A stretch of 45,116 bases of DNA from Anaerolineaceae bacterium 4572_78 (GTDB lineage: Bacteria > Chloroflexota > Anaerolineae > 4572-78), in NCBI GenBank assembly GCA_002084875.1, contig NBMH01000006.1:1-45116 (forward strand). The letters are read 5' to 3'. Made by a program: the position numbers and the translations under genes. Positions within the stretch are counted from its first letter, which is position 1. Every line of letters begins with the position of its first letter. The notes below the pieces were generated by a model. That model saw only the letters and a list, made by a program, of their open reading frames with translations. It did no database searches and had not been told where the DNA came from. Below, piece after piece: positions 249 to 44,863 of the stretch.

Positions 249-2057
249 ATGAACAAAACATTAGAAAAGTTACAGGAAAAATTTTCCACAGTTACATTGA
301 AAAGTGATACATTTAGGGAACAAACTAATATCACCATTCCCTCCGAACATCTTTTAGATATGGGACGGTTTTTACGGGATGAGCCTGATTTGAATTATAA
401 TTTGCTCATGGATGTGTACGGCATAGACCGCCGCAATTTAGGAATAGAACCACGCTTTGCCACAATATATGAATTGTTTTCTATTCCACATAACACACAT
501 TTACGTTTGACGGTTCCTGTGAAAAAAGAAGCAGTTGATATAAACTCATCAAGCAATGATAGAGGAAATGGTCACTCCTTTGGCACAGGGAAAACTCTGC
601 CGACTATTGATTCGGTGACGAGCTTGTGGTCAACAGCAAACTGGCTTGAACGGGAAGCTTATGATTTAATGGGTATCCGTTTTGAAGGGCATCCATGGCT
701 ACATCGCATTATGATGCCTGATAGATGGGTAGGGCATCCGTTGCGAAAGGATTACCCAATCGGTGGTGAGCCTGTCTACTTTTCGCATGACAAAGATAAT
801 CCAAAATTTGACCACCTTGCTACTCAAATTATGGATGGTCCGTCGTATCATGCCGATTTAGAGGCGGATATGGATACAGAAAAGCACATGGTTATCAACA
901 TGGGTCCGCATCATCCCTCGACACATGGCGTGTTGCGGCTTGCGGTTGAATTAGATGGTGAACGAGTCATTGCAGTGCGTCCCGAAGTAGGCTATCTTCA
1001 TTCAGGATTTGAGAAGATAGGGGAAAGCAAACGCTACGAAAATTTTATTCCTTATTGTGACCGCATGGATTATGCTTCCACAATGAGTAATAATTTGGGC
1101 TATGTCATGACGATTGAGAAGTTGATGGATGTCGAGGTTCCACAACATGCCCAATATGCCCGCGTTATCTTGACCGAATTGCAACGAATTGCCAGCCACA
1201 TGCTGTGGCTAGGAACACATGCTATGGATGTAAGCGGCATGATTCATTCCTTGTTGATGTATTGCTTTTATTCCCGCGAAAAAATCATGGATATTTTCGA
1301 GATGGTTTGTGGGGCAAGAATGACCACCAGTTATTTTTGCGTGGGCGGCTTACGCTGGGCATTACCTGGTGCATTTATGCCTGCCGTTAAACATTTTGTC
1401 GATGAGTTTAAGGAATCCATCAAAGATTTTGAAGGCATGTTGACTAATAATCCAATTTGGAAGCAACGGTTAATCGGCATTGGGCATATCAGCCGAAAAG
1501 AAGCGATAGATTTGGGATTGACTGGACCCATGTTGCGTGGTTCGGGAGTTGAGTTTGACTTGCGTAAAAAGCAACCATATTCTTCTTATGATGATTTTGA
1601 GTTTGACATTCCTACCTCAACGGCTGGCGATAGTTATGGGCGTTATATAGTTCGCATGGAAGAATTACGTCAAAGCATCCGCATCATTGAGCAGGCGGTT
1701 GAAAAAATTAAGCCAGGCATGCATAAAACTGATGACCGCAAGGTGGCATTACCACCTCGCCCTGAAATCATGAAACAATCAGATAAGGCAAGCATGGAGT
1801 CGCTCATTCATCATTTCAAGTTGGTGACGGAAGGTTATAAACCTCCAGCAGGACATATCTATGGCATGGCTGAAAATCCAAAGGGGATTTTGGGATTTGG
1901 CATAGTCAGCGATGGCTCGGCTATTCCATATCGTTTGCGTGTGCGTGGTCCATCATTTTCGCAGTATTTGCCTAAAATAATAATTTGTGGTAGAATGCTT
2001 TTTATGTTAGAAATTAGGAGTTATTGGTTTGGAGTTAGAAAGTTAGGAAGTTTGTAA
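249..2057 (+). CDS. nuoCD: NADH-quinone oxidoreductase subunit C/D fusion (NuoCD); C-terminus appears truncated or replaced
   Basis: ORF 180..2057; likely start at 249 (MNKTLEKL). NuoC motif ([27 protein letters not shown]) followed by NuoD ([38 protein letters not shown]). The usual NuoD C-terminus after RGPSF is missing. Confidence 0.88.
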
Positions 2058-2134
2058 CTCATTAACTCATTAAGATGTCTTTTATCTCAAAAGTGGATTG
2101 AACCCCACTTTTATTTTTGTTGTTAAAGAGTAAC

Positions 2135-2209
2135 TATACTAAAAAAGGGTTAGTTTTGTGAATACCATAAGCGGGTTTAAAGTTACAATTCTTACCCTTA
2201 GCAAGTATA
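2135..2209 (+). repeat. Short MITE-like element, internally deleted copy (75 bp)
   Basis: Ends tatactaaaaaagggttag / cttacccttagcaagtata are imperfect inverted repeats (14/19). Body matches the reverse complement of 11587..11728. Confidence 0.7.
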
Positions 2210-2259
2210 GTATGGTTAAATAAAAGATTTTCGGTACAGTTGTAGGAGGCGGTTTCGTC

Positions 2260-4086
2260 ATGAAAAGTAATTTCATGGTGGCAATCAATCAGGTTTGTCA
2301 TGAGCGTCAACTTTCAAGAGAAGTTGTTTTAGATGCAATGGAGGTTGCTCTGGTTTCAGCATATAAACGCAACTACGGGAGCAATTTGGTTACAGCTAAA
2401 GTTGATACTGTAACTGGGGCAATTAAAATTTTCATTGAAAAAAAGGTTGTAGAAGAAGTCAAAGATGAAAAAAACGAGGTTACATTAGACCAAGCCCAGC
2501 TGGTAAATCCAGATGCTGAGCTTGGAGGTGTGGTACATGTTGAAAGTACTCCTCCTAAAAAATTCAGCCGCATTGCTGCTCAAACAACCAAACAAGTCAT
2601 CTTGCAACGTATCCGTGAGGCAGAACGAGATGTGCTTTATAACACATATGCTGAACGAGAAGGTGAGATTGTTAGCGGGACGGTCCATAAGATTGAACGT
2701 AATCAAGTAATTTTATCACTAGGTAAAGTTGAGGCAATTTTGTTACGACATGACCAGATTCCAACTGAGCATTATAGGGAAGGGCAAAAGTTACGAGCGT
2801 ATATTTCTCAAGTAAGTAAAGCAATTCGAGGTCCTCAAATCGTGGTTTCTCGCACACATCGTAGCATGTTACGCCGATTGCTTGAGCTTGAAGTACCTGA
2901 AATCCATAATGGTATTGTAGAAATTAAGGCAATTGCCCGAGAGCCAGGCTATCGTTCTAAGGTAGCGGTGTCTGCCCTTCAAGAAGGAGTTGACCCTGTC
3001 GGCTCATGTGTTGGCATGCGAGGCATGCGAATACAGAGCATTGTTAGTGAGTTAGCAGGGGAAAAGATTGATGTAGCTCAATGGAGTATGGATAACAAAA
3101 TTTTTATCGCTAATGCACTTAGTCCTGCAAAAGTTATTAACGTCATCCTACAGGATATTGGGGATGATAAAACGGCTTTGGTTGTTGTGCCAGATAAACA
3201 ACTTTCACTCGCAATTGGAAAAGATGGACAAAATGCACGTTTGGCAGCCAAGTTGACAAGTTGGCGAATTGATATTAAAAGTGCTATTGAAGCGGCTAGA
3301 GATGCTTTAGAACGAGCTTCTAAAAATGAGGAACTAAAAGCACGTGTGTTACACCGCCCTGAAATTTTCAACATGGTTGCAAGTATTCTTTCCGAACAAA
3401 ATGATAACACTGATTTGTCGCAAGGCGAATTGAAGTTGTTAAGCGAGGCTATTGAGTTGGTTGGGCAGGCTGAACTTGACATTGCTCGTGAAAAATACCA
3501 ACAAGAACAAACCCAATTAGCAAAGGATGATGATTTGTTAGCCCAAGCTACTAGTTTGTTGATGGACGATGATTTTGATGCTCTTGATGTGGATCAAATT
3601 TCAGAGGTACTTGCGATTGATGACCAAACAGATGATGATACTTCATCTGATGTTGATGAAACCGATAAAACCGACGAAACTGATGAAACTGATGAAACTG
3701 ATGAAACAGAAACATCGGTACACGATTCGAAAGATACAACAGTTGAGGTAACATCTCCTGCTGAAACGGTTGAGTCGGAACCTAAATCTGAACCAGAATC
3801 ACCCGATATTGGGCAGGACATCAAAGACACTGTCCCTACACCAAAACCTATCATCAAATCAATTTTGGATAAACCGCCTGAGTCTGAACCAGAAAAGAAA
3901 CCTAAGCGAAAACTTAGACCTATTTATATTGGTTCATCAAAGTTGATTGATGACCCGCAGTCTGATACCAAGCGAAAGAGCAAAAAACGTGTTTTAGAAT
4001 ATGATGAGGATTTAGGACGTGTTGTAGCTAAGCGTCGTCGTAAAGAGTCACGTCTTAGAGATAACTGGCAGGATGATATTGATTGA
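2260..4086 (+). CDS. nusA: Transcription termination/antitermination factor NusA with long acidic/basic C-terminal tail
   Basis: NusA N-terminal domain, S1-like (GEIVSGTVHKIERNQVILSLG), KH domains (DPVGSCVGMRGMRIQSIVSELAGEKIDV; LAIGKDGQNARLAAKLTSWRIDI). Confidence 0.96.
   Translation: MKSNFMVAINQVCHERQLSREVVLDAMEVALVSAYKRNYGSNLVTAKVDTVTGAIKIFIEKKVVEEVKDEKNEVTLDQAQLVNPDAELGGVVHVESTPPKKFSRIAAQTTKQVILQRIREAERDVLYNTYAEREGEIVSGTVHKIERNQVILSLGKVEAILLRHDQIPTEHYREGQKLRAYISQVSKAIRGPQIVVSRTHRSMLRRLLELEVPEIHNGIVEIKAIAREPGYRSKVAVSALQEGVDPVGSCVGMRGMRIQSIVSELAGEKIDVAQWSMDNKIFIANALSPAKVINVILQDIGDDKTALVVVPDKQLSLAIGKDGQNARLAAKLTSWRIDIKSAIEAARDALERASKNEELKARVLHRPEIFNMVASILSEQNDNTDLSQGELKLLSEAIELVGQAELDIAREKYQQEQTQLAKDDDLLAQATSLLMDDDFDALDVDQISEVLAIDDQTDDDTSSDVDETDKTDETDETDETDETETSVHDSKDTTVEVTSPAETVESEPKSEPESPDIGQDIKDTVPTPKPIIKSILDKPPESEPEKKPKRKLRPIYIGSSKLIDDPQSDTKRKSKKRVLEYDEDLGRVVAKRRRKESRLRDNWQDDID
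3672..3710 (+). repeat. 9-bp tandem repeat in nusA encoding (T-D-E)n
   Basis: gacgaaactgatgaaactgatgaaactgatgaaaca. Confidence 0.8.
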
Positions 4087-4092
4087 GGTGAA

Positions 4093-4383
4093 GTGCTGAT
4101 GAAACAAAAGCATGTCTCTCAAAGAATGTGTATTGTCTGTCGAGAGGTGCAGGCTAAACATGCACTTATTCGTATTGTTAAGCCAAAGCCTCTCCAGTTT
4201 GATAGTTTAATTTTTATTGATGAAAAAGGTAAAGCATTGGGAAGAGGAGCTTACTTATGTAAAAAGGCTTCATGTTGGCGAAAATGTCTTTCTAAGAAAT
4301 TTCTCAATCGTGCATTACGAACATCAGTTTCTGATGCGGATGTACTATTTTTGAAAATGTATGCGGATACACGGTTTAAGTAA
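4093..4383 (+). CDS. ylxR: YlxR family RNA-binding protein (DUF448)
   Basis: RMCIVCREVQAKHALIRIV...GKALGRGAYLCKKASCWRKCLSKKFLNRALR; position between nusA and infB. ATG start possible at 4099. Confidence 0.92.
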   Translation: MLMKQKHVSQRMCIVCREVQAKHALIRIVKPKPLQFDSLIFIDEKGKALGRGAYLCKKASCWRKCLSKKFLNRALRTSVSDADVLFLKMYADTRFK

Positions 4384-4592
4384 GGTAAAATTTATCGGTC
4401 AACTATCCCATGCTCATACCACTTAATATCAAATATACAAAGACTAAGTTTTCTTATGTAGTCAGTAGCTATGATTTCTAATCACGCGGTTGACAAAGCA
4501 AGTATTGTCACTCCCTCGCGATTGAAAATTGCGGCTATAAAATTCAAAACCTATAGGAGATTGGTCTTTGAAATGGGATGAGGAGGCGAAAT

Positions 4593-6368
4593 ATGGGAAA
4601 TAGAGTTGTTGAGATTTTACCAGATTTGACGGTGCGTGAGTTGGCTGAAAAATTAGGGGAAAGTCCCATTGATGTTATAAAAGAGTTAATAAGAAATGGG
4701 ATTATGGCAACCATTGACCAGAAACTTGACTTTGATACAGCTGCTATTGTTGGTGAGGAGATGGGGTTTGAGATTATTCTTTTTGAGGAAAAAGATGCTG
4801 AACCCATCGCTGAACTTAAAAAGGCGGTGATATTACGACAAAAATTTTTGTCGGAAGAGCCAGAAGATAAGTTAAAATCACGTCCTCCAGTAATTGCTGT
4901 GCTAGGACATGTTGACCATGGCAAGACTACTTTACTAGATGCTATCAGGAATACAAGTGTTGTCAAAGATGAATCTGGTGGAATTACGCAACACATTGGT
5001 GCATACCAAGTTAATGTGAACACACAAAAGATAACTTTTCTTGATACCCCAGGCCATGCTGCTTTCACAGCAATGCGGGCAAGGGGAGCCATGGTTACGG
5101 ATATTGTTATTCTCATCGTAGCGGCAGACGATGGTATCATGCCTCAAACAAAAGAGGCGATTGGTCATGCTAGAGCTGCCAATGTGCCGATTATTGTAGC
5201 AATTAATAAAATTGATAAGTCTAATGCCAACCCTGATAAAGTTAAACAAGAGCTCGCAAATGAGAATCTCATTGTTGAAGATTGGGGCGGTGATGTAATC
5301 TGTGTTCCAATTTCTGCTTTGAACAATGAGGGCATTGATGAACTGTTAGATAATATCATTCTTGCCGCCGAAGTTTCTGATTTCAAGGCTAATCCTGACC
5401 GCTATGCACAAGGAACTGTCATTGAAGGACGGTTGGATAAACAACGAGGAGTAGTGGCAACATTATTGGTGCAGAACGGTACATTAAAACAAGGGGATGT
5501 TGTTGTCATTGGCACAACTTCTGGACGAGTGCGTGCTATGTTCGATGACAAAGGGACAAAGATTATGATGGCAAGCCCGTCCAGCCCTATTTCTATGATG
5601 GGACTATCCGAAGTTCCAATAGCTGGCGACTTCTTTGAAGTTGTCAAGAACAAGAAGCTTGCTCAATCAATCGTCTCTAAACGGAAAGATGCAAAGAAAA
5701 GTAAAAGAAAAGCGAAACGAGGTATGAGCCTTGAAGACTTTCTAATTCGGCTTGAGGGTGAAGAGGTTAAAAAACTCAAATTAATCCTCAAAGCAGATGT
5801 TCAAGGTTCAGTAGAACCAATTACCTCCTCATTAAAACATTTGGGTGATGATGAGCATAAGGTCGATGTTATTTTAGCAGGAACAGGTAATATCACTGAA
5901 ACAGACCTTTCTCTAGCACTGGCTTCAGAAGCTATTATTGTAGGCTTCAACGTTGAAATTGACTATGCTGCCAAGCGTGTTGCCGAATCTGAAGGAGTAG
6001 ATATTCGCACTTATAATATCATCTATAAATTAGTTGAAGATATTGACTTGGCACTTCAAGGATTGTATGAGCCTGTTTATCAAGATAGAATTATTGGACA
6101 TGCTGAAGTTCGGGCTACCTTTAGAGTAGGAAAGTCAATCGCGGCAGGTTGTTATATCAGTGATGGTAAAATTACTCGGAATGCCTTAATTCGTGTTGTT
6201 CGTAACCGAAAACTTATCCATGATGGTACCGTCAGTTCGTTACGTCATTTTAAGGATGATGTTCCTGAAGTGGCTCATGGCTATGAATGTGGCATCGGTA
6301 TAGAAAATTTCAAGGAAGTTGCTATTAGTGATATCCTTGAAGCTTATGTTAAAGAACGAGTTAATTAA
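4593..6368 (+). CDS. infB: Translation initiation factor IF-2
   Basis: ORF 4578..6368; GTPase motifs [25 protein letters not shown]-terminal IF-2 domain. Start at 4593 ([11 protein letters not shown]) or 4578. Confidence 0.97.
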
Positions 6369-6408
6369 GTCTTGTAATAGTTGCCCACCCTTGACCCTGT
6401 GGGAACAC

Positions 6409-6454
6409 ATGGGGTATTGTTTTTAACAGAAATGGGGTATTGTTTTTAACAGAA
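6409..6454 (+). repeat. Tandem duplication of a ~22-bp unit (atggggtattgtttttaacagaa)
   Basis: Two near-identical adjacent copies, the second forming the start of the 6432..6546 repeat. Confidence 0.8.
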
Positions 6455-6546
6455 TATGTAGGGATTTATGGCATAAATCCTACACGATGATAAGACATGT
6501 GTCCCATATTCCTACATGTTCTACCTGAAAAAATAACATTGAACAG
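6432..6546 (+). repeat. ~115-bp near-perfect repeat, inverted relative to 44981..45095
   Basis: atggggtattgtttttaacagaatatgtagggatttatggcataaatcctacacgatgataagacatgtgtcccatattcctacatgttctacctgaaaaa...cattgaacagc is found as reverse complement at 44981..45095 with few mismatches. Confidence 0.92.
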
Positions 6547-6598
6547 CCATGTGGCAACTACTAACAAGATATTTATAATTACATGCAGGTATCTAAAT

Positions 6599-6934
6599 AT
6601 GCCCACAAGACGACAACAAAGAATAGCCAAACTTATTCGCCAAGAAATAAGTAAACTATTGCTATTTAATACACGTGACCCACGTATCAATTTTGTCACT
6701 GTAACAGAAGTAAAAATATCATCTGATTTGAAATCAGCAATGATTTACGTTAGCTTATTGCAGGATGATGAAAAGGATGCTATGTCTGGTTTAGAGAGTG
6801 CGACCCCGTACCTTCGCCGCCAATTGGCTCAAAATGTGAGTTTACGCTATATGCCCAAACTTGTGTTTAAGATTGACCGTACTTTAGCACATGCAAAAAA
6901 AATAGAGGATTTACTGTCGGAAGACGTGGTATGA
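6599..6934 (+). CDS. rbfA: Ribosome-binding factor A
   Basis: ORF 6497..6934; likely start at 6599 (MPTRRQQRIAKLIRQEISKLL). RbfA pattern DPRINFVTVTEVKISSDLKSAMIYVS. The N-terminal ORF extension lies in the repeat. Confidence 0.93.
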   Translation: MPTRRQQRIAKLIRQEISKLLLFNTRDPRINFVTVTEVKISSDLKSAMIYVSLLQDDEKDAMSGLESATPYLRRQLAQNVSLRYMPKLVFKIDRTLAHAKKIEDLLSEDVV

Positions 6935-7809
6935 CTACAGGTATCTTAAATATCAATAAACCTCAGGGCTTAACATCTCATGATGTTATCAATCGAATCC
7001 GCAGACTTATCGGTGTTCGTAAAGTCGGACATACTGGCACACTCGACCCTTTAGCGACGGGTGTGCTTTTGGTTTGTGTTGGGCAAGCTACTCGTCTTAT
7101 CGAGTACATGCAAATGGGAACAAAGGTGTATCAGGCGACAATTCTATTTGGCAAAACAACGAATACTTATGATAGTGAAGGTAAAATTACGGCTGAGCAT
7201 GACCCAAGTCATCTGACCGAATTATCTGTGTGCCAAGCATTAGCTAAATTTGTCGGCACTATCGAACAAGTCCCGCCTGTTTTTTCCGCCATTAAAAAAG
7301 ATGGTGTTCCACTTCACAAACTAGCACGACAGGGTATCCATGTTGAGCCTAAAGCCCGCATGGTTCACATTGATAAAATATTCCTGCTAAATTGGCACAT
7401 GCCCCAAGCAACTATTGAAGTCACTTGTCAGGCAGGTACATACATTCGCTCAATAGCTCATGACATGGGACAGGTTTTAGGGGTAGGAGGACATTTAACT
7501 GATTTGATACGCACTGCTAATGGAAATTGGCATGTTGATACGGCAACTTCATTAGATGATGTAGAAAACGCAGTCAATCATAATAAGTTAAACTCTGTAT
7601 TATATCCCAAAGAAAAAGGAATTACTCACTTACCTGCCATGACTTTGTTATTTGATGAAGTACGTCGGGTTCGGATGGGACAGGCAATTACAAATCGCAT
7701 TGAGATTGAAACCCCCATCGTAGCGGGGTATGATGAAAATAAAAAGCTGGTCGCATTATTGCATACAAAACTGGCAGGTTTCTTAAGACCTACAAAGGTG
7801 TTTCATTGA
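6931..7809 (+). CDS. truB: tRNA pseudouridine(55) synthase TruB
   Basis: GILNINKPQGLTSHDVINRIRR, KVGHTGTLDPLATGVLLVCVGQATRL. Confidence 0.97.
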   Translation: MTTGILNINKPQGLTSHDVINRIRRLIGVRKVGHTGTLDPLATGVLLVCVGQATRLIEYMQMGTKVYQATILFGKTTNTYDSEGKITAEHDPSHLTELSVCQALAKFVGTIEQVPPVFSAIKKDGVPLHKLARQGIHVEPKARMVHIDKIFLLNWHMPQATIEVTCQAGTYIRSIAHDMGQVLGVGGHLTDLIRTANGNWHVDTATSLDDVENAVNHNKLNSVLYPKEKGITHLPAMTLLFDEVRRVRMGQAITNRIEIETPIVAGYDENKKLVALLHTKLAGFLRPTKVFH

Positions 7810-7871
7810 GATGAGAAAATATCACAAAACCGTATTTTATGTTAGGAAGTTGAACGTCTAGTGAAAATAAT

Positions 7872-8798
7872 ATGCAAGTCATCTATAGTCTATCCGAAAA
7901 AATTGTTCTCAAATCAAACCGAAGTGTATTAACTATTGGCTCTTATGATGGCATCCATTGTGGGCATAAAAAAATCATTACTGGCATGAGGACGGCGGCA
8001 ATGAAATATGATGTTTCGAGTGTGCTGATAACATTCCATCCCCATCCAAGAACCATTTTGACTCCCCATATTCCTGTAGAATATTTGACCACTATTGAAG
8101 AAAAATTAAATATTCTCCAGCGACTCGAATTAGATATCGTTACTGTTTTTCCTTTTAGCCATGAGTTTTCACAGACCCCTGCTCATGAGTTTATCCGCAA
8201 AGTAGTTACAGTTTTTAAGCCAATTGAGTTATGGGTTGGTTCTGATTTTGGATTAGGTAAGGGACGCAAAGGAAATGTAGATTACTTGCATTCTTTTGGT
8301 TCAACACTTGGGTACAAATTACAAGTGATTGATTTACGAAAAAATGATAATCAACCAGTTTCATCGACCAACATCAGACAGGCTCTGAAATTAGCTAATA
8401 TAAAAAAAGCGACTAAATTATTGGGAGAATATCCTCTCTTGCTTGGTCAAGTGGTCGAAGGAGCAAAAAGAGGACGTAAGCTGGGTTTTCCCACTGCGAA
8501 TATCCAAATAGATAAACATAAATTGTTACCTCCAAATGGTGTTTATGCTGTGTGGTTAAAGGTCGATGATAGAACCTATCAGGGCGTAGCAAACATCGGA
8601 ACGAGACCGACTTTTGATACAAAAGAACAGACTCTAGAAGTGTATATTTTTGATTTTAATCAAAATATCTATGGCAAAAAGGTATGCGTTTATTATGTTG
8701 AATATATCAGAAAAGAGCAAAAGTTCCATGATACGAGAGCGTTGATTGCTCAAATTCGGCATGATGTCGCTCAAGCTAGGGATATTCTTGAAAAGTAA
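7872..8798 (+). CDS. ribF: Bifunctional riboflavin kinase/FAD synthetase
   Basis: SVLTIGSYDGIHCGHKKII; flavokinase domain GEYPLLLGQVVEGAKRGRKLGFPTANI, NGVYAVWLKV. Confidence 0.95.
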   Translation: MQVIYSLSEKIVLKSNRSVLTIGSYDGIHCGHKKIITGMRTAAMKYDVSSVLITFHPHPRTILTPHIPVEYLTTIEEKLNILQRLELDIVTVFPFSHEFSQTPAHEFIRKVVTVFKPIELWVGSDFGLGKGRKGNVDYLHSFGSTLGYKLQVIDLRKNDNQPVSSTNIRQALKLANIKKATKLLGEYPLLLGQVVEGAKRGRKLGFPTANIQIDKHKLLPPNGVYAVWLKVDDRTYQGVANIGTRPTFDTKEQTLEVYIFDFNQNIYGKKVCVYYVEYIRKEQKFHDTRALIAQIRHDVAQARDILEK

Positions 8799-8902
8799 AT
8801 TCTATTCGTTTACTGCTAAAATTTTGGAGAATAATTGACAAAAAAATAAAATCGGCTATAGTACCCTTAGATTATTTGTTTTTTGATTAGGAGATAATAG
8901 AT

Positions 8903-10231: not shown

Positions 10232-10558
10232 GCTACAAAAGCAGTACATGTTGGGATAACTCCTGACCCTTCAACTGGAGCAATTGTTCCACCTATATAC
10301 CAAACATCTACATTTGTATTAGAAGAGATAGGCAAGGATAAGGGATTTAGCTATACGCGTGCTAATAACCCAACACGAGGGGTTTTAGAAGCAAACCTTG
10401 CTGGGATTGAAGGAGGCAAGTATGGTGTCTCTTTTGCTTCGGGATTATCGTCGGCTGATGCTTGCATGAGATTGTTATCAGCAGGCGACCATGTTGTTTC
10501 AAGTGAGGATGTTGAGGATATTATCGCTGATTTAGAACAGGCACTAGAAAAAGTATAA
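10231..10558 (+). pseudogene. Cystathionine gamma-synthase-like (trans-sulfuration PLP enzyme) remnant with N-terminal truncation and large internal deletion
   Basis: Manual translation: FATKAVHVGITPDPSTGAIVPPIYQTSTFVLEEIGKDKGFSYTRANNPTRGVLEANLAGIEGGKYGVSFASGLSSADACMRLLSAGDHVVSSEDV|EDIIADLEQALEKV*. Family N-terminus joined directly to family C-terminus; no start codon; PLP-lysine region absent. Confidence 0.85.
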
Positions 10559-10566
10559 TTCATATT

Positions 10567-10617
10567 GGAGGGTCAAAGCTTGCTTTGACATGAAAAAGCA
10601 AGCTTTGAACAGCCCTA
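10567..10617. repeat. Palindromic repeat family B (caaagcaagctttga/gaaaaagcttgc)
   Basis: ggagggtcaaagcttgctttgacatgaaaaagcaagctttgaacagccctac; hairpin-forming, related copies elsewhere. Confidence 0.75.
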
Positions 10618-11199
10618 CACATGCATATCCATTTTAGGCAATGTGATTCCTGTTTGCCCTTGATATTTTCCTTTACGGTCAGCATAAGTGACCATGCATG
10701 GTTCATCACTCATAAAAAAGAGAACTTGAGCAATCCCTTCATTGGCATAGATGCGAGCAGGTAAAGGATTTGTATTGCTAATTTCAATGGTGATATGTCC
10801 TTCCCAACCTGCCTCTAAAACAGTTGGAGGCGAGACAATCCCACAACGAGCATAGGAGCTTTTTGTTGTCATTAAACCTGTGACATTTGGCAACATGCGG
10901 ATATATTCCACGCTACGAGCTAGGGCAAATGAATTCGGTGGAATGATGCAATAACGTCCTCGTTCATCCTCATGAATTTTGCCCTCAACAAACGACCGTT
11001 CATCAAAGTTTTTTGGGTCAATTACCACCGCATTGACGTTTAAAAAAATCTTGAATTCATCTGCGGTAGAAACATCATACCCATAAGATGAAAGCCCATA
11101 AGAAATCACATTTTGCTGTACCAATTGTCTTGAAAAAGGTTCAATCATATCATGTTCCAAAACCATCTTTTCAATCCAAGAATCGGGTTTTAATGTCAT
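10615..11199 (-). CDS. dcd: dCTP deaminase
   Basis: [57 protein letters not shown]. Confidence 0.96.
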
Positions 11200-11586: not shown

Positions 11587-11728
11587 TATACTTGCTAAGG
11601 GTAAGAATTGTAATTTTAAACCATGTGGTTTGTGCCACAAACCCCTGCATTAACACTATTCACAAATGTAGGGGTTTATGGCATAAACCCGCTTATGGTA
11701 TTCACAAAACTAACCCTTTTTTGGTATA
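11587..11728 (-). repeat. MITE-like element, long copy (142 bp)
   Basis: Reverse complement tataccaaaaaagggttagttttgtgaatac...cttacccttagcaagtata shares ends and body with 2135..2209 and has ~67 bp extra with nested palindromes (gggtttatggcataaaccc; ggtttgtggcacaaacc). Confidence 0.75.
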
Positions 11729-13533: not shown

Positions 13534-13690
13534 AACCTAGAGACATTTTGCCTTATTTCATTTTTATTGTCAACTATGGGATAAGAAGTAGGCTGAATAT
13601 CAATTTCTCTAAAAAAGAACCACATTTGCCTTAATAATATTTCCTGCTAAAATAGCAACTATAATTAAATGAGGAAACAGAAGAAGAAAC

Positions 13691-22721: not shown

Positions 22722-22844
22722 GTTTACAATTCTCTATTTTGTTAATATCTTTTTGGTGTGATTGAACCATTTATTAATTTACAATCTATGTTTTATGTGT
22801 TAATACATATATGGATGAGATGAAAACAAAACCAAGTTTCATGC

Positions 22845-23585
22845 TTGCGGGCATTGGAAATCAAATTAACTGCTTTACCTGATGAACAAACTCATTCACT
22901 ACCTGAAAATAAATATGGAAGCGAAATTGTTGTCAGACCTGATACAATTGTTTATTTAGCATTGAGTATCGCAAGTACTTATCAGTCTGAACGAAATACA
23001 TTACTGAGTATTATGGGACCTGTTTGTTCAACTATTCAAGATTGGGAAAATCCTAAAGAAGTTCAGTCTCTTATTTTAGATATGATAAGTATAATTGATG
23101 GCATTTTGCTTGATAAACTAGATAAACAAAAACCATTACTTTTGCAACCTATATGGAAAACAATTGGTAAGTCAAGTGTTTTGGATATTAATTGTTTAGA
23201 TATATTCGTTTGGAGTGATTTTGCTTTCACTCGTTTATTTATTGATGCATCACTAAGCAAATCTACATACAAAATTACTCGTTTATCTCGTACAGTTATA
23301 TGGCTTATCAAAATGTTATTTGATTTTGCTAAAAATGGTCGTTTTAACCCTAAACAAACAATTGATAAACTAACCTACAACACAAGAAATGATAAGGCAT
23401 TTGCACTTGGTGGCAAAAGTACACACCAATACATGGTTTGTTCAGAGTTAGTTAAACCCAGATTAACAAAACATATTTTCAAAAATATCATTTTAGGAGG
23501 GGGGCAGAATTTTTTAAGTCCTGAGCGAAGGTTAGATGCCGTCATACTAAGCACTTCTGGTCTATTTGAAAAAGAGCGGGAATAA
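22845..23585 (+). pseudogene. Probable type II restriction endonuclease remnant or N-terminally truncated gene paired with the downstream C5 methyltransferase
   Basis: Overlaps the methyltransferase ORF start. Begins at a TTG with RALEIKLTALPDEQ (E-x-K nuclease-like motif at the extreme N-terminus). An ATG at 22811 in another frame stops after ~23 codons. Confidence 0.5.
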
Positions 23586-31442: not shown

Positions 31443-32678
31443 TTATTTTGCTGAAATAGGCGGATGCCGATTTGCCCAAGGACGTGCTGACTCAAGTTGA
31501 GCTGCCAGTCGGAAAAGACTCGCTTCATCACCATAACTGCCAATAAATTGTTAATGGATTGTCAGCAGGAGCATCAAATGTACCAAGTTTCACTGGAGGT
31601 TCTGCTAAAGTTGGCATAATACACATGTCATATTCAGCAAAAGAAGCTACGATTTGACGAGAAATCAATTGCAAAAATTGAATAGCCATCATATAATTAG
31701 TAGCAGTGTAATCCTTACCAAACTCGTATAATGTCCAAGTGAGCGTTTCAAAATCTTCTTCTACAAGGTACTGCCCTGTCAATTGGGTAATCGATTCTAA
31801 GGCAGTTGCCACCCCTGATGTCCAAACAACTGTAAACATCTGCGAAAGTAAATCAGTGTTGAAAGTAGGCTCTATTTCCTCAACATGATGCCCTAGCTCA
31901 CTACACAATTGGGCGGAATCTTCAACTGCTTTTAAACAATCGGGTTGGATATTAAAACCTGTTTGTGGGTCAAGGATAAAGGCAATCCGTAACTTTCCAG
32001 GATTTTCACCTACTTCTTGTAAAAATGGACGAGAGTTAGGCGGGGCATAGTATGGGTCACCTGGCATGGGTCCTGAGGTAACATCCAACAATGCGGCACT
32101 ATCTCGAACTGAACGGGTAATGGCATGTTCAACAACAAGCCCACCCATAATGTCACCACGCGGGGCTAAACTATTGCGTCCACGTGTCGGCTTCAGTCCG
32201 AACACACCACAACAGGAAGCAGGAATCCGAATAGAACCCCCTCCATCATTCCCATGTGCCATTGGGACAAGCCCACTTGCCACAGCCGCCGCCGAACCAC
32301 CACTAGACCCACCAGCAGTGTACTCAACATTCCATGGGTTGCGAGTGGCTCCAAATGCCACAGGCTCTGTACTGGGCAATATACCAAATTCAGGGGTATT
32401 GGTTTTACCAAGTATAACCAACCCTGCTTTTTTGTAACGTTTTACAATTTCGCTATCATCATGGGGAATAAAATTCTTTAATGCCACTGACCCTGAAGAC
32501 AACGGCACACCAGCATAAGTTGCGAGTAAATCTTTAAGAAGACATTTATCTTAGGATTAACATCCTCGATACGTTCAATCGCCGCCTCGACCAATTCAAT
32601 CGGCTTAACTTCTTTGCTACGCACCAATTCAGCTTGAGCTGTTGCATCCATAAAGGCAAGATTGCTTAATGCGGTCAT
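31443..32678 (-). pseudogene. Amidase (amidase signature family) pseudogene with two internal deletions and frameshifts
   Basis: N-terminal piece 32478..32678 (MTALSNLAFMDATAQAELV...EDVNPKINV); middle 31528..32508 ([35 protein letters not shown]); C-terminal piece in a third frame, [35 protein letters not shown]. Confidence 0.9.
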
Positions 32679-32716
32679 AAAAATTGCTCCTATGTATCTG
32701 TATCATAAGTTTTAGG

Positions 32717-33655: not shown

Positions 33656-33798
33656 ACAAATCACTCCTTATCTTAAAAATGCAATTTTTTAGAAACTTGT
33701 TACAGTACGCACACCTAATAAAAAAGTTGTAATATAAAAAATAAATTCAAATTTGCTTTATTTCAAAAAAATGCTACAATGCCCATGATGAATTTTAT

Positions 33799-33887
33799 GG
33801 GAAGGTGCCAGAGCGGTTTAATGGGGCGGTCTCGAAAACCGTTGTGGGCTTTTTAGTCCACCGTGGGTTCGAATCCCACCCTTCCCG
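33799..33887 (+). tRNA. tRNA-Ser (CGA)
   Basis: Acceptor gggaagg/ccttccc; anticodon loop ctCGAaa; variable arm; T-arm gtgggttcgaatcccac. Confidence 0.93.
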
Positions 33888-33898
33888 TAGCAAATTTA

Positions 33899-33983
33899 GG
33901 AGAGGTGTCCGAGCGGCCGAAGGAGCACGACTGGAAATCGTGTAGGTGTCACAGCCTCGAGGGTTCGAATCCCTCTCTCTCCG
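33899..33983 (+). tRNA. tRNA-Ser (GGA)
   Basis: Acceptor ggagagg/tctctcc; anticodon loop ctGGAaa; long variable arm; T-arm gagggttcgaatccctc. Confidence 0.93.
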
Positions 33984-34013
33984 CTTGATTTTGTTTGTAA
34001 GTGTGTTAGTATT

Positions 34014-34132
34014 CACAGGTCACCGGGCGGGTCCTGCGCGGCAAAGGATTGCGAACCTGGTCAGGGTCGAGAGACAGCAGCCATAAGCAGGTTCTTTTGG
34101 GTGACGTAGGGTTACCTGGCCGGTGACCTGTG
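34014..34132 (+). ncRNA. ffs: Bacterial small SRP RNA (4.5S type)
   Basis: Terminal helix cacaggtcaccgg/ccggtgacctgtg; conserved SRP core cctggtcagggtcgagagacagcagcc...gcaggt. Confidence 0.88.
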
Positions 34133-34177: not shown

Positions 34178-35034
34178 ATGCGTTTTCACATAGCAAAATT
34201 TGGAAAATATCACTGGATAACTAAATTATTCGTTGTTTTAGTGCTTATCATATTCATACCAGCTATCTACATTTTAACAAGTACTCCCATTTTATTTACG
34301 ATTAATGGGCAAATCTTCTTTGTTCGTGGGCATCAGTATCGGTTCAATCGGTGATAGAAAAAATAACATTACATCTCATCCCCCAAGATTATGTTTCTCT
34401 CCCCCTTGAATATGGCTTAAAACCGCATGACACCTTTGAAATTATGCTTGCTCGTCCAATTACGATTGATTTGCCCACAGAACCAGAACCATTTACAATT
34501 TTTACACAACATCAGACTCCACATGATATTTATCAAAGTTTAGAAATTGGAATCATACCTAACTCAATCAGGTACAGCATCATTTGTCAACAGTCAAGAA
34601 GTTTTCGGCACATGTATTACCTTATTTGGTGCATGCCGATTGCCAAATTTACGTTCTTTAGCTGTTCATCTAAAATTAAACTATGCTATTACTATACGAT
34701 TTACCGACAGCAAGGAAACGTATACCTTTCGCAGTCATGATGCAACCGTCGAAGAAACTTTAGCAAGCCATGATATTTTTGTTTACGATGAAGATTTTAT
34801 CCAAACTCGTACTTTATATGCTACCGTCGCCGAAGTGTTATCAATTTATGAAGCAAGATTTATATGCCAGATTATGGCATAGCAATTGCTGGAGATACAG
34901 GGGGATCAATTAAAGACAGACGGATTGATTTAGGTTTTAACGATGGGGAATTGGAATTTTGGTATGATGAGGTAGATGTATATATCTTAACTCCTGTTCC
35001 TCCTGAGGATGAGATTAATTATGTTTTACCTTAA
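34178..35034 (+). pseudogene. RpfB/YabE-like (DUF348 + 3D domain) cell-wall protein pseudogene with multiple frameshifting deletions
   Basis: Fragments: MRFHIAKFGKYHW...ILTSTPILFTINGQIFFVRGH; IPQDYVSLPLEYGLKPHDTFEIMLARPITID; ITIRFTDSKETYTFRSHDATVEETLASHDI; IYMPDYGIAIAGDTGGSIKDRRIDLGFNDGELEFWYDEVDVYILTPVPPEDEINYVLP* (C-terminal part of 3D domain). Next to rsmA. Confidence 0.82.
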
Positions 35035-35059: not shown

Positions 35060-35905
35060 ATGCTATCTCCTTATCAGCTTCTCAAAAAATATAATATCCG
35101 TCCCAAAAAGAAATGGGGACAAAATTTTCTCGCCGATGCCAACCATGTGCAAAAAATTATTGATGTCGCAGATATTACATCTGATGATACCATTTTGGAA
35201 ATTGGAGCAGGTTTGGGAACATTGACCATGCCCTTAACACACCATGCTAAAAACGTTCTTGCTCTTGAAGTAGACCCTATCATGGTCAATATCCTACAAA
35301 ACGAATTGGCAAATATATCTAATTTTCATCTCATGCAGGCTGACATTCTGAAGGTTGAGCCAAGCAATTTGTTGCAAATCCTTATACCTGATTTTTCGGT
35401 TGCTGATGATTATATTGTCGTGGCAAATTTACCGTATTATATCACTTCTGCCATAATTCGCCGTTTGCAAGAGAGTAACCATCCTCCTAAAAAAATGGTT
35501 ATCACGGTGCAGAAAGAAGTGGCTCAACGGATTACCGCTAGACCAAATGACATGAGCTTACTGGCTGTTAGTGTGCAGTTTTATGGAAAACCAACATTAT
35601 GTCACACAATCCCTGCACAGGCATTCATCCCGCTCCCCAACGTTACTTCGGCTGTATTAGGCATTGAACGTCATGCAGTGTTACCGATTACGATTGAATC
35701 AAAATTATTCTTCCGTGTTGTCAAAGCAGGGTTTAGCCAAAAGCGAAAGCAATTGAAAAATACGCTTGCTGGCAGTTTTCATGTTTCCTCACATGAGATT
35801 GCCAATCGCATGCAATCTGTGGGAATTAGCCCAACCCGTCGACCTCAAACACTTTCTTTAGAAGAATGGGAAATCGTAACGAAATGTCTGATAGATTTTA
35901 TATAG
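35060..35905 (+). CDS. rsmA: 16S rRNA (adenine1518/1519-N6)-dimethyltransferase
   Basis: KKWGQNFLAD, ILEIGAGLGTLTMPL, VVANLPYYITSAIIRRL, FSQKRKQLKNTL. Confidence 0.96.
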   Translation: MLSPYQLLKKYNIRPKKKWGQNFLADANHVQKIIDVADITSDDTILEIGAGLGTLTMPLTHHAKNVLALEVDPIMVNILQNELANISNFHLMQADILKVEPSNLLQILIPDFSVADDYIVVANLPYYITSAIIRRLQESNHPPKKMVITVQKEVAQRITARPNDMSLLAVSVQFYGKPTLCHTIPAQAFIPLPNVTSAVLGIERHAVLPITIESKLFFRVVKAGFSQKRKQLKNTLAGSFHVSSHEIANRMQSVGISPTRRPQTLSLEEWEIVTKCLIDFI

Positions 35906-35910
35906 TTTTA

Positions 35911-36060: not shown

Positions 36061-36105
36061 AATTTATCTTATCGCTGAAATGCGTAATTTCTGACAATAT
36101 TCAAC

Positions 36106-37571: not shown

Positions 37572-37578
37572 TTTTTCG

Positions 37579-37635
37579 GTAACCGTTCACAACACACCCT
37601 ATCCCGCGTGGGGGAGGAGTTAGGGATGGGGGCTA
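37579..37635 (+). repeat. 3'-truncated GTAACCGTTCAC MITE
   Basis: gtaaccgttcacaacacaccctatcccgcgtgggggaggagttagggatggggg. Confidence 0.75.
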
Positions 37636-38405: not shown

Positions 38406-38521
38406 GATTACCTCCATATTTGTCAAAATTAATGAATACGATTATTATAGCATGAAGAATAAATTTTGCTAATTTTGAGTGATTAGAAATTAGAATATCC
38501 AAATCCTTAAACTTAATTCAC

Positions 38522-38926
38522 ATAGCCTACTATCGCAGTAAACAATTTTTTTCTGCTCTCAATCCGACAATTTCCGATGATGAGCGGCAATTGGTCAAAA
38601 TGACATTGGGCAATAATTTGTCTGCTTTGACTCTGTTTGAGAAAATGGATAAAACAGACCGGGTGCTGATTGTGTTACTGGCTACATTCATGCCAAAAAT
38701 ATTACACAAATTTGGAAACGCTTCCTTGAATTGTGTCGCATGGCGAAGACCATTCGTTATTCATGCCAAACATCATGAAATTGGAGCGACATGGGCAAGG
38801 GAAGCTGGATGTGATGAGCTTGTGGTGTGTTTGATTCGGCATCATCAACAAAAACCCGTCATAAACTCCGACATACAATTTGAGAAATTTCAGGCTATTT
38901 TGTATCAAGCAGATAGCATAAACTAG
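38522..38926 (+). pseudogene. HD-superfamily-like protein remnant lacking the HD catalytic core
   Basis: Frame open upstream of the first ATG: AYYRSKQFFSALNPTISDDERQLVKMTLGNNLSALTLFEKMDKTD|RVLIVLLATFMPKIL...RRPFVIHAKHHEIGATWAREAGCDELVVCLIRHHQ. No HDxGK-type motif. Confidence 0.55.
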
Positions 38927-38934
38927 GATTAAAT

Positions 38935-39516
38935 ATGAACAATACAACAATTAAAATCATTATCGCTATTTTAATCTCCATATTCACTGTGTGTGTATGT
39001 TGTGGTGGAGTTTTCACATGGTCAGCCGCCATCACTTTACAATCTTCGTTTATTATCGACCCTGATAAAGTTGAGGCGTTTGGAGCTGATATTGCCACCT
39101 ATACCATGCCCAATGACTATCATCATCTTTTCGGCATGGATATTTTGAATATGAGGATGGTAGTTATGGGAACTCAAAACGAAACAATCGATGGCATGCT
39201 GATAACACTGATGAGTATTCCCGAAGGTGAACAGGTTAATGAGAATGAACTCAAACAGCAATTGCAATTAGCCATGCAACGGCAATATCCGCTTCAAAGT
39301 CTCGATTTGAAATTTGATACACTAGAAAACCACATCGTCAATGAGGAAGAAATAGTTTTTACAGTACGAAAGGGAACAGATTCAACAAACACTGCATATC
39401 AGCAAATATCTGGTTTAGTTACAAGTAATAAAGGGCGTGTATTTGTACTGATTCAGGGTCCCGAAACCATGTGGGATGAAACGGTTATCACTCAATTTTT
39501 AGAGTCGATTCAGTGA
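38935..39516 (+). CDS. Hypothetical protein with N-terminal TM/signal anchor
   Basis: MNNTTIKIIIAILISIFTVCVCCGGVFTW followed by a soluble domain. Confidence 0.65.
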   Translation: MNNTTIKIIIAILISIFTVCVCCGGVFTWSAAITLQSSFIIDPDKVEAFGADIATYTMPNDYHHLFGMDILNMRMVVMGTQNETIDGMLITLMSIPEGEQVNENELKQQLQLAMQRQYPLQSLDLKFDTLENHIVNEEEIVFTVRKGTDSTNTAYQQISGLVTSNKGRVFVLIQGPETMWDETVITQFLESIQ

Positions 39517-39524
39517 GGTAATTT

Positions 39525-40561
39525 ATGAAAATTGCGGTTGCTCATGATTGGCTTAATCAAATGGGTGGTGCAGAGAATGTATTGGAAACGATGATTAGCA
39601 TGTTTCCTGATGCTCCTGTCTTTACGACGATTTATGCCTCCGACCTTATGCCTGCTAAATATCGTGGTTGGGATATTCGGGCAAGTTGGCTGAATAACGC
39701 TCCATATATCCATGCCCATCATCAAATGTATCTGCCATTTTATCCACTGGCGGCACGCAGTTTGGATGTGAGTGGTTATGATGTTGTTCTATCAAATAAA
39801 AGCGGCTTCATACATGGCATAAAAACAACCTCTAATCAAACCCATATTTGTTATTGCCTTGCCCCGACTCGCTATGTTTGGGACTATAAGCAATATGCCC
39901 AACGTGAACAACTGAACCCGTTTATAAAACTGACCTTGTTGCCAATCATCTATCTTCTGCGGAAATGGGATTATCGAATGGCTCAAAATGTTAGCCAATT
40001 CTATGCCATTTCAACCGACATTCAACAACGCATTAAAAAATATTATCATCGCGAGTCTAAAATTATTTATCCGCCAGTTGACATCGCCAGATTTCAACCA
40101 GTTAAATCTCCTAATGAAGATTATTATTTTATCGTCTCGCGGCTAGTTCCCTACAAACGGATTGATTTAGCAGTGCAGGCTTTTACACGAATGAAAAAGC
40201 GTCTTGTCATTACTGGTGATGGATCGAGTTAATGGCAAACTGTAGGGCATTTATTTTTCCTGGTTACGAAGATTTTGGCATAACACCTGTTGAAGCTCAA
40301 GCCGCTGGGCGGGCGGTAATTGCCTTTGCAAATGGCGGGGCATTGGATACGATTATCCATGAAAAAACGGGGCTATTTTTTCAGGAGCAAACTGTAGATA
40401 GTTTGATTGAATCCGTCCACCGTTTTGAATCGATGGATTTTGACACGCATGTCATTCGAGAAAATGCGAAACGATTTAGTACAGAACGTTTTAAGCGAGA
40501 GTTATATCAGGCGATACAAGACCCCACCCCCGACCCCTACCCTGCAAGGAGAGGGGAGTAA
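39525..40561 (+). pseudogene. GT4-type glycosyltransferase disrupted by internal deletion and frameshift
   Basis: ORF 39525..40232 ends MKKRLVITGDGSS*; ORF 40232..40561 continues (EL)MANCRAFIFPGYEDFGITPVEAQAAGRAVIAFANGGALDTI. The linker between GDGS and ELMANC is missing. Confidence 0.85.
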
Positions 40562-40632
40562 AACGCACCCCAATAGGGAGATGAGTTTCTCTTGTTCCCC
40601 TATCCATAAGTGGGAGGGGCTAGGTGTGGGGC
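40519..40632. repeat. MITE-family A derivative overlapping the 3' ends of two convergent ORFs
   Basis: gaccccacccccgacccctaccctgcaaggagagggg...gtgggaggggctaggtgtgggg; related to 32717..32835 in reverse orientation, without the TIRs. Confidence 0.7.
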
Positions 40633-43600
40633 AAATTATTAATCCTGTAAAGATAAGGATACAATAACTTCAACTGCTCATGCACTAGATTCGCATTTTT
40701 AATATCGCTTTCATTTTCATACAATTCCAAAAGATGCAACAAGGATTTGGAACTTTCGATAGAACGGTCTACATAAATTAGTTGAGATATATAAGGAAAA
40801 TAATGCCGTTTTCGAGCAAAGACGACAATTTCATAATTGAGCGAAACCATTTGCGGCGGTACAGCCTGCCAATAAAATGATTTTGCTTTTTCCAATTCGC
40901 CCCGTGCCTCATAAATTCGACCTAAATAATAATTTGATTCCGCATTTTTATAGGCATTGAGAAACCGAGCCATTTTCAAATCTTGGATAGCATCAGCATG
41001 ATTTTCAGTATTTCCTAGCCAACGAGCCTTTCCTCGTAAAGCATATAAATTTCCCTCAATATCACCATGCTCAATCAATTCAGTTAGTATAATTTCTGCT
41101 TCTTCGGTCTGATTTTGTCCAATTAAGGATTTTGCCAATAGTAACCTCAGAGCCTCGCTTTGATATTCCATTTTATCTCGTATAGCCTGCTCAACTTCAT
41201 GATAAGATTTATTAGCTAACTTAAGCGTATATAACACAACCATGTCATCCGTTTGCTGGCTGACCGTATCAATAATGCGATTGCGTTCCTCTGCATCCCA
41301 CAAACCAGACATGATTATCGGCGGCGAAATTTGCACGGCTAAAGCATACTCATGGAGTGATTCAGATTCGTTTCCTAATTGCTCATAAAAATCCCCCAAA
41401 TTAAGCCGATAAATGGCATCATCAGGGGACATGGCAATTGCCATTTTCATGCGTTTGATGGCAGATTCGGGTTCTCCCGCTTGCAATAGTAATTTTGCCA
41501 AATTGGCATGATAAACAGGATTGCTCCCTTCGGATTGCAATGCCATGTCATAATTAGCAATTGCATGTGGTAAATAAGATTTGTCAATGTTAGCCTGCTC
41601 ACCTTGATAATATGCCAACTCAAATTGATAAAATATCATGTTGGGGTCAAGGTTGTGGGCATGTTCTATCATGGAAATTGCCTCATGTAATTTTCCTTGC
41701 AAAGCTAAATCGGCTGATTTTTCGGCGTAGTATTGAGCAATGTCAGAACGAATCAGAAAAAATGCATAACCACAAATCAATGTTATTATCAAAGCAAGCT
41801 TTGACGCTTCAGCCCATCTACCTGTGGGGGACGGGTTAGGGGCTTCTGTCAAAGGAATTATTAAAAATGCAATGCCAATTAGCATGGGTAAAATAATCTG
41901 AGTAGCATTAAAGGTATCTACAATGCTTTGCCCTGCAAAGCCACATAAGGAGGCGAAAATGGCAATTAAACGCAAACGTGTTGTCGCATGTGGAATCGTT
42001 TGCCAATTTCGTCTAAACGCAATCAAGCCCATACCGATTAAGAAAATGCCCGCTAATATGCCAAGCATGCCAGTTTCAGCGGCGGTGTTCAGGTAAATAT
42101 TATGAGCAGTCATCATCTGGTCGCGGGCAAGTTCTGGGTTGCGATATTGACGTAAAAAACGACCATATAATTTCGGTCCCACGCCAGTAATTGGATGGTC
42201 GACTGTCATGTGAATAGCACTTCGCCATAAATCCCAACGAACTAAATCACCGCTAAGGGTGGAATTGCCTTGAAGACGTTGCAAAAAAACGCCGAGCATA
42301 ATGAAACTGAGGAGGAGGATAAGAATTACCCCTGTTATAATGTAAAAACGAGGCTCTGATATTCCTTTGTCAAAGCGAGCAACTATGAGTTGCTTTAATT
42401 TACACGGAATAATGGTCAGACAAGAAAGGTTTTCGAAAACCTTTTTTGTCTTGACCACAGAAGACTTTGACGTTACATACCGTCCAATGAATAATATTGG
42501 CAACGAAATAAACAATGCCAAAAAACCACCGCGTGAAGATGTCAAAACTAATACGACAATAGCCAATATTAACCATGCTGTTAAGACTTGTTTATCCTCA
42601 TGACGATATGTTGTTAATCGCAAGGCAATGGCAGGTGGGATAAACAATGCCAAATATGCCGCTAGCGAAGTGGAGCCGTTTAAGGTGAAATTCAGACGAT
42701 ATAGGTGAGGTGGAATAGGATTTGTCCACCCGCCGATGTCATGCCAACTTTGCTCGAATCCCGCTAGTAATGAAATGCCAAAATACCAACTGACAAATTC
42801 TGTCAAGCCTATGATACATACCACCCCACTACTTAAATACAAAGCACGAATGAATTTTTGTTGCTGATGAGGAATTATATCGAGAAGCAGATAAAACATA
42901 ATGGCATGCGAAATTGGTTGCCATAAGGCTTCAAAACTAAATCGAGGGTCAATCGATTGGCTGGCAGAAATGAACTGCACCACTAACCAAAAAATAATGG
43001 CGATGTCAAGGGATGTTTTGGGAAATCCCCATGATGTATCCCTTTTGGCAAATTTAGTCCATAGCCAGCCGCTAAAGATGGCCATGACCACGATAGCAAT
43101 AATCATTTCTTCTATCGCCTCTTTAGGTAATGGTTCAGCAAAAAGGAAGCCTTGTCCATACTCACAATGTAAATTCTTTAATTTGGTAGCTTGATAATCT
43201 GTTTCTACTCCTTCGGCAACCACTTGCATGCCCAAACTGTGTGCTAGGGTAATAATTGCCTCGACGATTTCTAAATTATTTTCATCTGTTCCAATCCTGC
43301 AAATGAAAGAATAATCAATTTTTAAGATGTCAACAGGCAAACGATGCAGATAACTTAATGATGAATATCCCGTTCCGAAATCGTCAATGGAGAGTTGAAT
43401 CTGACGTTCACGAAGTTTATACAATCTTTCTGTGACCCACTTGGAGCAATCCATGAGCGTCATCTCTGTAATTTCTATTTTGAGGTTAGCACCACTAATC
43501 TGTGTGTCATGCAAAATGTGGTCAATCTTGTTGATTAAATCAGGTTGCAAGAAATGTTTGGCAGAAAGATTAACACTCATTTTTAATGATGGATTGATTG

Positions 43601-44381
43601 AAGAGTGTTTTTGCCATTCTTGAAGTTGACGACATGCCTCATGCAATACCCATTGGTCAATAGATACAATGATGTTGGTTTTTTCTGCTTCATGAATAAA
43701 CATACCTGGTTGAAGCATGCCTCGTTTGGGATGTTGCCAGCGAGTGAGTGCCTCAAGGGCGATGATTTTGCCAGTTGTTAATGACACAATCGGTTGGTAA
43801 TAAACGACAAACTCATGACGTTCTAAGGCTCGTCTCATATCGGTTACTAGTTGTAAAAGATCCACCACTTTGGCATGCATGCTCTCGTCAAATATCTGAT
43901 AGTCTGATTCTTTATTCTCCTTTGCCATGTGCATGGCTGTATCAGCATCACGCAAAATGTGCTCAGTTTGTTTGTAGTCTGATGTGCCTAAGACGATGCC
44001 TATACTCATGTTTATAAATATTTCATGCGAATTAATTTCAAATGGTTTTGTCAATTGATTATTAATCTTTTTAGCCAGGGCTTGGGCTAAATTAATACTT
44101 CTGACATTGACCTGTAGGATGACAAATTTATCTCCTTCAAAACGTGTCAACATGGTTGTGGATACGAGGCATGATTCCAGTCTTTCTGCAAGCAACACTA
44201 GCACTTGCTTTCCTATGACATGCCCCAGCGAATTATTAATTAATCGAAAACGGTCACAATCTAAAAATAACACCGCAAATTTGTTATTAGGTTGTATTTT
44301 TGTCTGAGCAAGTGCCTCGTCTAATTTTCTCATGAGCAGTGCGCGATTTGGCAAGCCTGTTAGGTCATCATGGTACATCAT
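40620..44381 (-). CDS. Chimeric ORF: GGDEF-EAL domain protein (N-terminus) fused to O-antigen ligase/Wzy-like membrane protein with TPR tail
   Basis: GGDEF-like HDDLTGLPNRALLMRKL and degenerate FEGDKF; EAL EALTRWQHP, DDFGTGYSSLSYL; then TM segments, HNIYLNTAAETGMLGILAG (Wzy_C-like), TPR repeats. Confidence 0.8.
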   Translation of the reverse strand: MMYHDDLTGLPNRALLMRKLDEALAQTKIQPNNKFAVLFLDCDRFRLINNSLGHVIGKQVLVLLAERLESCLVSTTMLTRFEGDKFVILQVNVRSINLAQALAKKINNQLTKPFEINSHEIFINMSIGIVLGTSDYKQTEHILRDADTAMHMAKENKESDYQIFDESMHAKVVDLLQLVTDMRRALERHEFVVYYQPIVSLTTGKIIALEALTRWQHPKRGMLQPGMFIHEAEKTNIIVSIDQWVLHEACRQLQEWQKHSSINPSLKMSVNLSAKHFLQPDLINKIDHILHDTQISGANLKIEITEMTLMDCSKWVTERLYKLRERQIQLSIDDFGTGYSSLSYLHRLPVDILKIDYSFICRIGTDENNLEIVEAIITLAHSLGMQVVAEGVETDYQATKLKNLHCEYGQGFLFAEPLPKEAIEEMIIAIVVMAIFSGWLWTKFAKRDTSWGFPKTSLDIAIIFWLVVQFISASQSIDPRFSFEALWQPISHAIMFYLLLDIIPHQQQKFIRALYLSSGVVCIIGLTEFVSWYFGISLLAGFEQSWHDIGGWTNPIPPHLYRLNFTLNGSTSLAAYLALFIPPAIALRLTTYRHEDKQVLTAWLILAIVVLVLTSSRGGFLALFISLPILFIGRYVTSKSSVVKTKKVFENLSCLTIIPCKLKQLIVARFDKGISEPRFYIITGVILILLLSFIMLGVFLQRLQGNSTLSGDLVRWDLWRSAIHMTVDHPITGVGPKLYGRFLRQYRNPELARDQMMTAHNIYLNTAAETGMLGILAGIFLIGMGLIAFRRNWQTIPHATTRLRLIAIFASLCGFAGQSIVDTFNATQIILPMLIGIAFLIIPLTEAPNPSPTGRWAEASKLALIITLICGYAFFLIRSDIAQYYAEKSADLALQGKLHEAISMIEHAHNLDPNMIFYQFELAYYQGEQANIDKSYLPHAIANYDMALQSEGSNPVYHANLAKLLLQAGEPESAIKRMKMAIAMSPDDAIYRLNLGDFYEQLGNESESLHEYALAVQISPPIIMSGLWDAEERNRIIDTVSQQTDDMVVLYTLKLANKSYHEVEQAIRDKMEYQSEALRLLLAKSLIGQNQTEEAEIILTELIEHGDIEGNLYALRGKARWLGNTENHADAIQDLKMARFLNAYKNAESNYYLGRIYEARGELEKAKSFYWQAVPPQMVSLNYEIVVFARKRHYFPYISQLIYVDRSIESSKSLLHLLELYENESDIKNANLVHEQLKLLYPYLYRINNLPHT
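41790..41852. repeat. Family B + family A repeat fragment inserted in frame in the O-antigen ligase region
   Basis: caaagcaagctttgacgcttcagcccatctacctgtgggggacgggttaggggcttctgtc, encoding EAPNPSPTGRWAEASKLA on the minus strand. Confidence 0.75.
42419..42454. repeat. Family C-like hairpin within coding sequence
   Basis: gacaagaaaggttttcgaaaaccttttttgtctt, encoding KTKKVFENLSC on the minus strand. Confidence 0.65.
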
Positions 44382-44440
44382 GTGCGTTAGCTGTTCTTGG
44401 ATGTGCTTACGTTCGGCGATTTCCTTATGAAGGTTTTGGT

Positions 44441-44863
44441 TTATGGTTTGAAGTTGGGCAGTACGTTGTAAGACTCGCGATTCAAGTTCCTCATTTGAGT
44501 TTCTATGCGGGCTAATACTTCTGGCAATTGGAATGGCTTGGTAATATAATCAATTCCTCCCACTTGAAAAGCCTGTACTTTATTTAAGGTTTCACCAAGT
44601 CCACTAATAAAAATAATGGGAATGTTGGAAGTTCGCTCATCACTTTTTAATCTCCGACACACTTCGTAGCCATCCATATCAGGCATGTTGATATCAAGCA
44701 ATATTAAGCTAGGTGGGGCTTTGCGTGCCGCTCTTAAGGCGACATGTCCATTGATTGCAGGACGTACTTTATAGCCGTGTTCTGTCAGTAGGGTTATCAA
44801 AAGTTCTAGGTTGGGGAGAATATCATCAACGATTAAAATATCTCCTTTGTTGGTATTTGTCAT
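44441..44863 (-). CDS. Response regulator receiver domain protein, probably the N-terminal part of a split RR-GGDEF-EAL gene
   Basis: ILIVDDILPNLELLITLLTEHGYKVRPAINGHVALRAARKAPPSLILLDINMPDMDGYEVCRRLK...DYITKPFQLPEVLARIETQ. Frame lost at ~44505. Confidence 0.88.
   Translation of the reverse strand: MTNTNKGDILIVDDILPNLELLITLLTEHGYKVRPAINGHVALRAARKAPPSLILLDINMPDMDGYEVCRRLKSDERTSNIPIIFISGLGETLNKVQAFQVGGIDYITKPFQLPEVLARIETQMRNLNRESYNVLPNFKP

Follow-up and report, generated by a model that had tools for sequence, protein, structure and literature searches.

Introduction

Bacterial pseudogenes, as described in published genomes, carry mainly insertions or deletions shorter than 10 bp and premature stops (PMC2916853), and in a large natural set of indels those of 1 bp predominate (PMC9248902). 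Genes can also be wrong for technical reasons, unfilled joins and local errors being a known source of such genes in public metagenome genomes (PMC7111523). Here we examine a stretch of 45,116 nucleotides from Anaerolineaceae bacterium 4572_78, referred to as the window, for which the initial annotation had proposed either that the lineage is eroding or that the assembly drops segments. The second of these is favoured, and the gene breaks are, on the evidence of the sequence, very likely to be for the most part assembly artefacts.

The window is the whole of contig C212 of a draft genome (G000) of 4.10 Mb in 252 contigs that is 81.6% complete. For its RsmA the nearest named matches come from Chloroflexi/Anaerolineae genomes, at 52-60% identity. 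The relatives used for comparison include five of the same family and none of the same genus or species.

Results

Broken and intact genes in the window

Frames and family searches bear out the deletion-type lesions that the initial annotation had read in nuoD, metB, a restriction gene, an amidase, where there are two, an rpfB-like gene, a glycosyltransferase and a response regulator/GGDEF region. The nuoCD fusion (180-2057, forward strand) is without the C-terminus of NuoD past about position 1958, where sequence of intergenic type follows; the NCBIfam NuoD match spans 2-354 of 386, and the matches to the relatives, all of them intact single open reading frames, end at one residue. In the metB/cystathionine gamma-lyase fragment (10238-10555, forward) about 92 N-terminal residues are fused in frame to the final 14-20 or so. 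It matches Pfam positions 1-100 of 381 and, in a cystathionine gamma-lyase from the PDB, residues 19-109 and then, weakly, 375-394. The HindVP-type restriction endonuclease (22817-23585, forward) covers profile columns 92-332 of 332, with a short N-terminal piece upstream in another frame. The amidase (31446-32702, reverse) is spread over three frames, and frame analysis places its junctions near 32530 and 31555; its middle piece matches Pfam positions 63-397 of 445, and the N and C pieces, once re-joined, match the query rows of the relatives. The RpfB/YabE-like gene (DUF348 ... 3D; 34306-35031, forward) is in pieces, having neither G5 nor the first half of 3D (Pfam 3D, 26-53 of 72), and is some 0.6-1.0 kb shorter than in the relatives, where the copies adjoining rsmA are single reading frames of 468-550 aa. 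The glycosyltransferase (39525-40561, forward), also a single reading frame in the relatives, is split by a frame switch at 40223 with a net change of -76 bp by tblastn. The response regulator receiver domain (44441-44953, reverse; Pfam Response_reg, 1-110 of 111) is out of frame with the GGDEF-EAL part near 44495.

Two further lesions of the initial annotation fare less well. The one in the HD-like gene, as it was named there (38483-38923, forward), is unsupported because the gene has no significant family match, and it is kept as a candidate only. The other concerns a single reading frame (40620-44381, reverse) with Pfam GGDEF, full EAL, Wzy_C and TPR domains, in which EAL is complete through the last profile column and then runs in frame, near 43105, into an O-antigen-ligase-like protein. 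A search for a reference with which to compare this EAL-Wzy arrangement found none, and we infer that it is a fusion by deletion.

Several non-coding features were also seen. A dispersed intergenic repeat of about 80-140 bp occurs at 2131-2226 and 11587-11728 and has 61 matching places in the genome, and another short one, with several copies of 82-87% identity, lies at 13600-13655 upstream of 13691. A third, of about 195 bp and with some 40 places, mostly of 88-98% identity, occurs at 6432-6547 and at the contig end (44923-45116); it terminates many contigs, as in short-read assemblies. Two tRNA-Ser genes followed by an SRP RNA gene (33798-34124) all appear intact.

The window's housekeeping genes do look intact, as the initial annotation had noted. 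The run of nusA, a small ORF, infB, rbfA, truB and ribF (2260-8798, forward) gives full-length or nearly full-length NCBIfam matches, dcd (10615-11199, reverse) matches TIGR02274 over 2-180 of 180 and rsmA (35060-35905, forward) matches TIGR00755 over 1-249 of 256. The intactness of these seven named genes is consistent with real deletion-driven erosion, in which many deletions of about 100 bp would accumulate in genes that can be spared, with selection preserving the essential ones. It is also what chance would give, since the seven amount to only 7.3 kb and would carry no lesion with a probability of 0.76 if the rate measured across the genome is applied, or of 0.20 with the window's own rate.

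Lesions elsewhere in the genome

A 1.15-Mb sample of G000 was aligned with proteins predicted from the relatives, and lesions were found well outside the window. Within 299 kb of alignable coding sequence 11 frame-shifting deletions were counted, compared with none in 176 kb from five relatives (G012, G011 and G001-G003) put through the same alignment test, where 6.5 would be expected at the G000 rate (P ~0.0016). One of the 11, L216 (net -83 bp), is doubtful and may be a difference in repeat number, and it was excluded from the size statistics; L216:1-300 (G000:C7) is an exact tandem repeat within an Rhs/YD-like repeat protein. The remaining ten deletions are of 52-137 bp, or 47-137 bp with a mean of 97 when leuS is included, these sizes being estimates from protein alignments that may err by a few codons. 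Same-frame differences that are possibly natural, in L132/HdrA (-204) and L269 (-342), were not counted, and three events of a first survey (L134, L140 and L146) are absent from the stricter second one. The survey misses many lesions because it requires a reference on both sides of each; in the window it covered 13 kb and counted one frame-shifting deletion. The window may have more lesions than the genome average.

The statement that deletions dominate over point nonsense mutations holds up well, with the 11 frame-shifting deletions standing against one good nonsense candidate in the 299 kb. This is a single in-frame stop at L130:1347-1949 (G000:C136:41347-41949), in a gene 50% identical to that of a relative. 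Apart from it, the small lesions comprise two weak 1-bp splits at low identity, with no convincing frameshifts of 1-2 bp, and there is one frame-shifting insertion (L268, +41). That the lesions, compared with relatives of the family, appear private to G000 and are dominated by deletions would again suit erosion; the lack of small indels and stops speaks against it. Long-read homopolymer error was ruled out, as the losses are not of 1-2 bp.

A few of the losses in the window are larger. Those in metB, the RpfB-like gene, the restriction enzyme and EAL-Wzy, of roughly 0.25-1 kb, lie above the class of 50-140 bp, and at the metB junction both ends have a motif in common. It might be that these few are genuine, older deletions and that most other breaks are artefacts, but size by itself cannot separate an artefact from a genuine deletion in a comparison that has no independent genome of the species, and such a mixture would seem very unlikely.

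Essential genes are hit

The apparent sparing of housekeeping genes fails outside the window, where gyrB, the only leuS found and clpC are broken, and with it erosion lost its appeal. In leuS (C238), judged by coordinates and frames, residues 3-463 are encoded up to 9587 and residues 480-594 from 9589 onward in another frame, with about 47 bp lost; the relatives have LeuRS as one reading frame each, six of 854-884 aa and that of G002 of 927 aa. The gyrB gene (C21) is frame-shifted with a net change of -91 bp; C151 carries another GyrB-like gene, which is more divergent and unbroken. Three losses leave clpC (C101) in four pieces and one loss breaks yifB, all four to five family orthologues of these being intact. 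Intact genes in G000 include rpoB, rpoC, dnaE, thrS, aspS, metG, argS, groEL, atpA, recA, valS, secA and dnaA. Searches of G000 for alaS, pheT and pyrG did not find them, as is possible in an incomplete draft. The mnmG gene appears to be split over contigs C143 and C202, with about 26 residues absent between its pieces. Two of the essential genes tested carry a lesion, a rate that is not below the overall one. Breaks thus fall irrespective of gene importance, as local assembly error predicts.

Missing intact duplicates are conceivable because the genome is incomplete, and those of leuS or gyrB could be absent from the draft. A real lineage with an unusual mutation process, one that frequently makes near-blunt deletions of about 100 bp and strikes even leuS and gyrB, would need such copies to have been missed, and is highly improbable.

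Signs of decay are few in the broken genes. The pieces of clpC share 54-78% identity with the G012 protein, where intact orthologues from the family reach 73-76%, and the fragments of yifB match its intact copies in conservation. Unbroken versions of nuoD, the glycosyltransferase, leuS, clpC and yifB are present in relatives in the family. In G000 essential genes are not spared, small frameshifts and stops are nearly absent from the 299 kb surveyed, and neither coding density (0.867) nor ORF length (median 308 aa) is reduced, both being like those of the relatives. Erosion is therefore very unlikely, given the broken leuS and gyrB, the conservation of the broken genes and the normal coding density.

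Junctions, repeats and gaps

The junctions are clean and most look blunt or share few bases, with no long direct repeats evident at most of them. As to the initial suggestion that the deletions are possibly microhomology mediated, the metB and response regulator/GGDEF junctions would permit about 7-9 bp of shared sequence. A second intact copy of the lesioned stretches was sought in G000, and just dispersed repeats and short weak matches were found.

Chimeras from whole-genome amplification are mostly inverted. Chimeric reads from the amplification of a single cell could have produced the deletions, and the patchy clustering of lesions, with three in clpC and two in the amidase, would suit uneven coverage, but no unique inverted copies beyond near-palindromes occur in the 1.15 Mb, making this origin extremely unlikely.

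The 1.15-Mb sample contains just two stretches of Ns, one 44 bp long and one 10 bp. Both lie within coding-like sequence, which indicates that the assembly was scaffolded and that short gaps occur inside genes; their survival rules out blanket stripping of Ns. Contig-end overlaps were uninformative as a clue to the assembly word length, with one 104-bp overlap among 111 ends, and no pairs of contig ends completing each other over a short gap were found in the sample.

Discussion

Loss in assembly is favoured over the shedding of genes because similar clean losses of about 50-140 bp break genes that are indispensable, gyrB and leuS among them, and G000 probably does not represent a bacterium shedding genes. 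An artefact is supported by the clean, frame-breaking character of the losses, by their occurrence in essential genes, by the intact genes of the relatives and by the otherwise undecayed state of the broken genes. It is supported too by the size range of 47-137 bp and the near absence of small frameshifts and stops, which set the lesions apart from known bacterial pseudogenes (PMC2916853). Counting against an artefact, the 7-9 bp possibly shared at the metB and response regulator/GGDEF junctions could be as in real slippage deletions, and the two N gaps mean that Ns were not simply removed everywhere. At poorly supported points in the draft, stretches mostly of about 50-140 bp, and sometimes of several hundred, would have dropped out, and their flanks would then have been joined, usually without Ns. 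The cause may be a faulty join or the removal of poorly covered sequence, and the living genome would retain the missing pieces.

The draft can be expected to yield spurious pseudogenes, gene losses and fusions, such as the apparent GGDEF-EAL-Wzy protein. Clean frame-breaking losses of about 100 bp in otherwise well-conserved genes would be a cheap warning sign for other drafts, and one that is invisible to a completeness score.

The breaks resemble the local assembly errors and unfilled scaffold joins of metagenome-assembled genomes (PMC7111523) in leaving incomplete or incorrect protein-coding genes in a draft, with essential genes equally hit. There the breaks sit where reads give no support, whereas G000 was judged from the assembled sequence alone, and its lesions differ in that every one is a loss and their sizes are unusually even. 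With the pseudogenes of reductive genome erosion (PMC2916853) they share frame-breaking losses confined to one lineage. G000 differs from these in being nearly without the short indels and stops that are the commonest lesions there, and in that its essential genes are hit, the conservation of its broken genes is unrelaxed and its coding density is normal.
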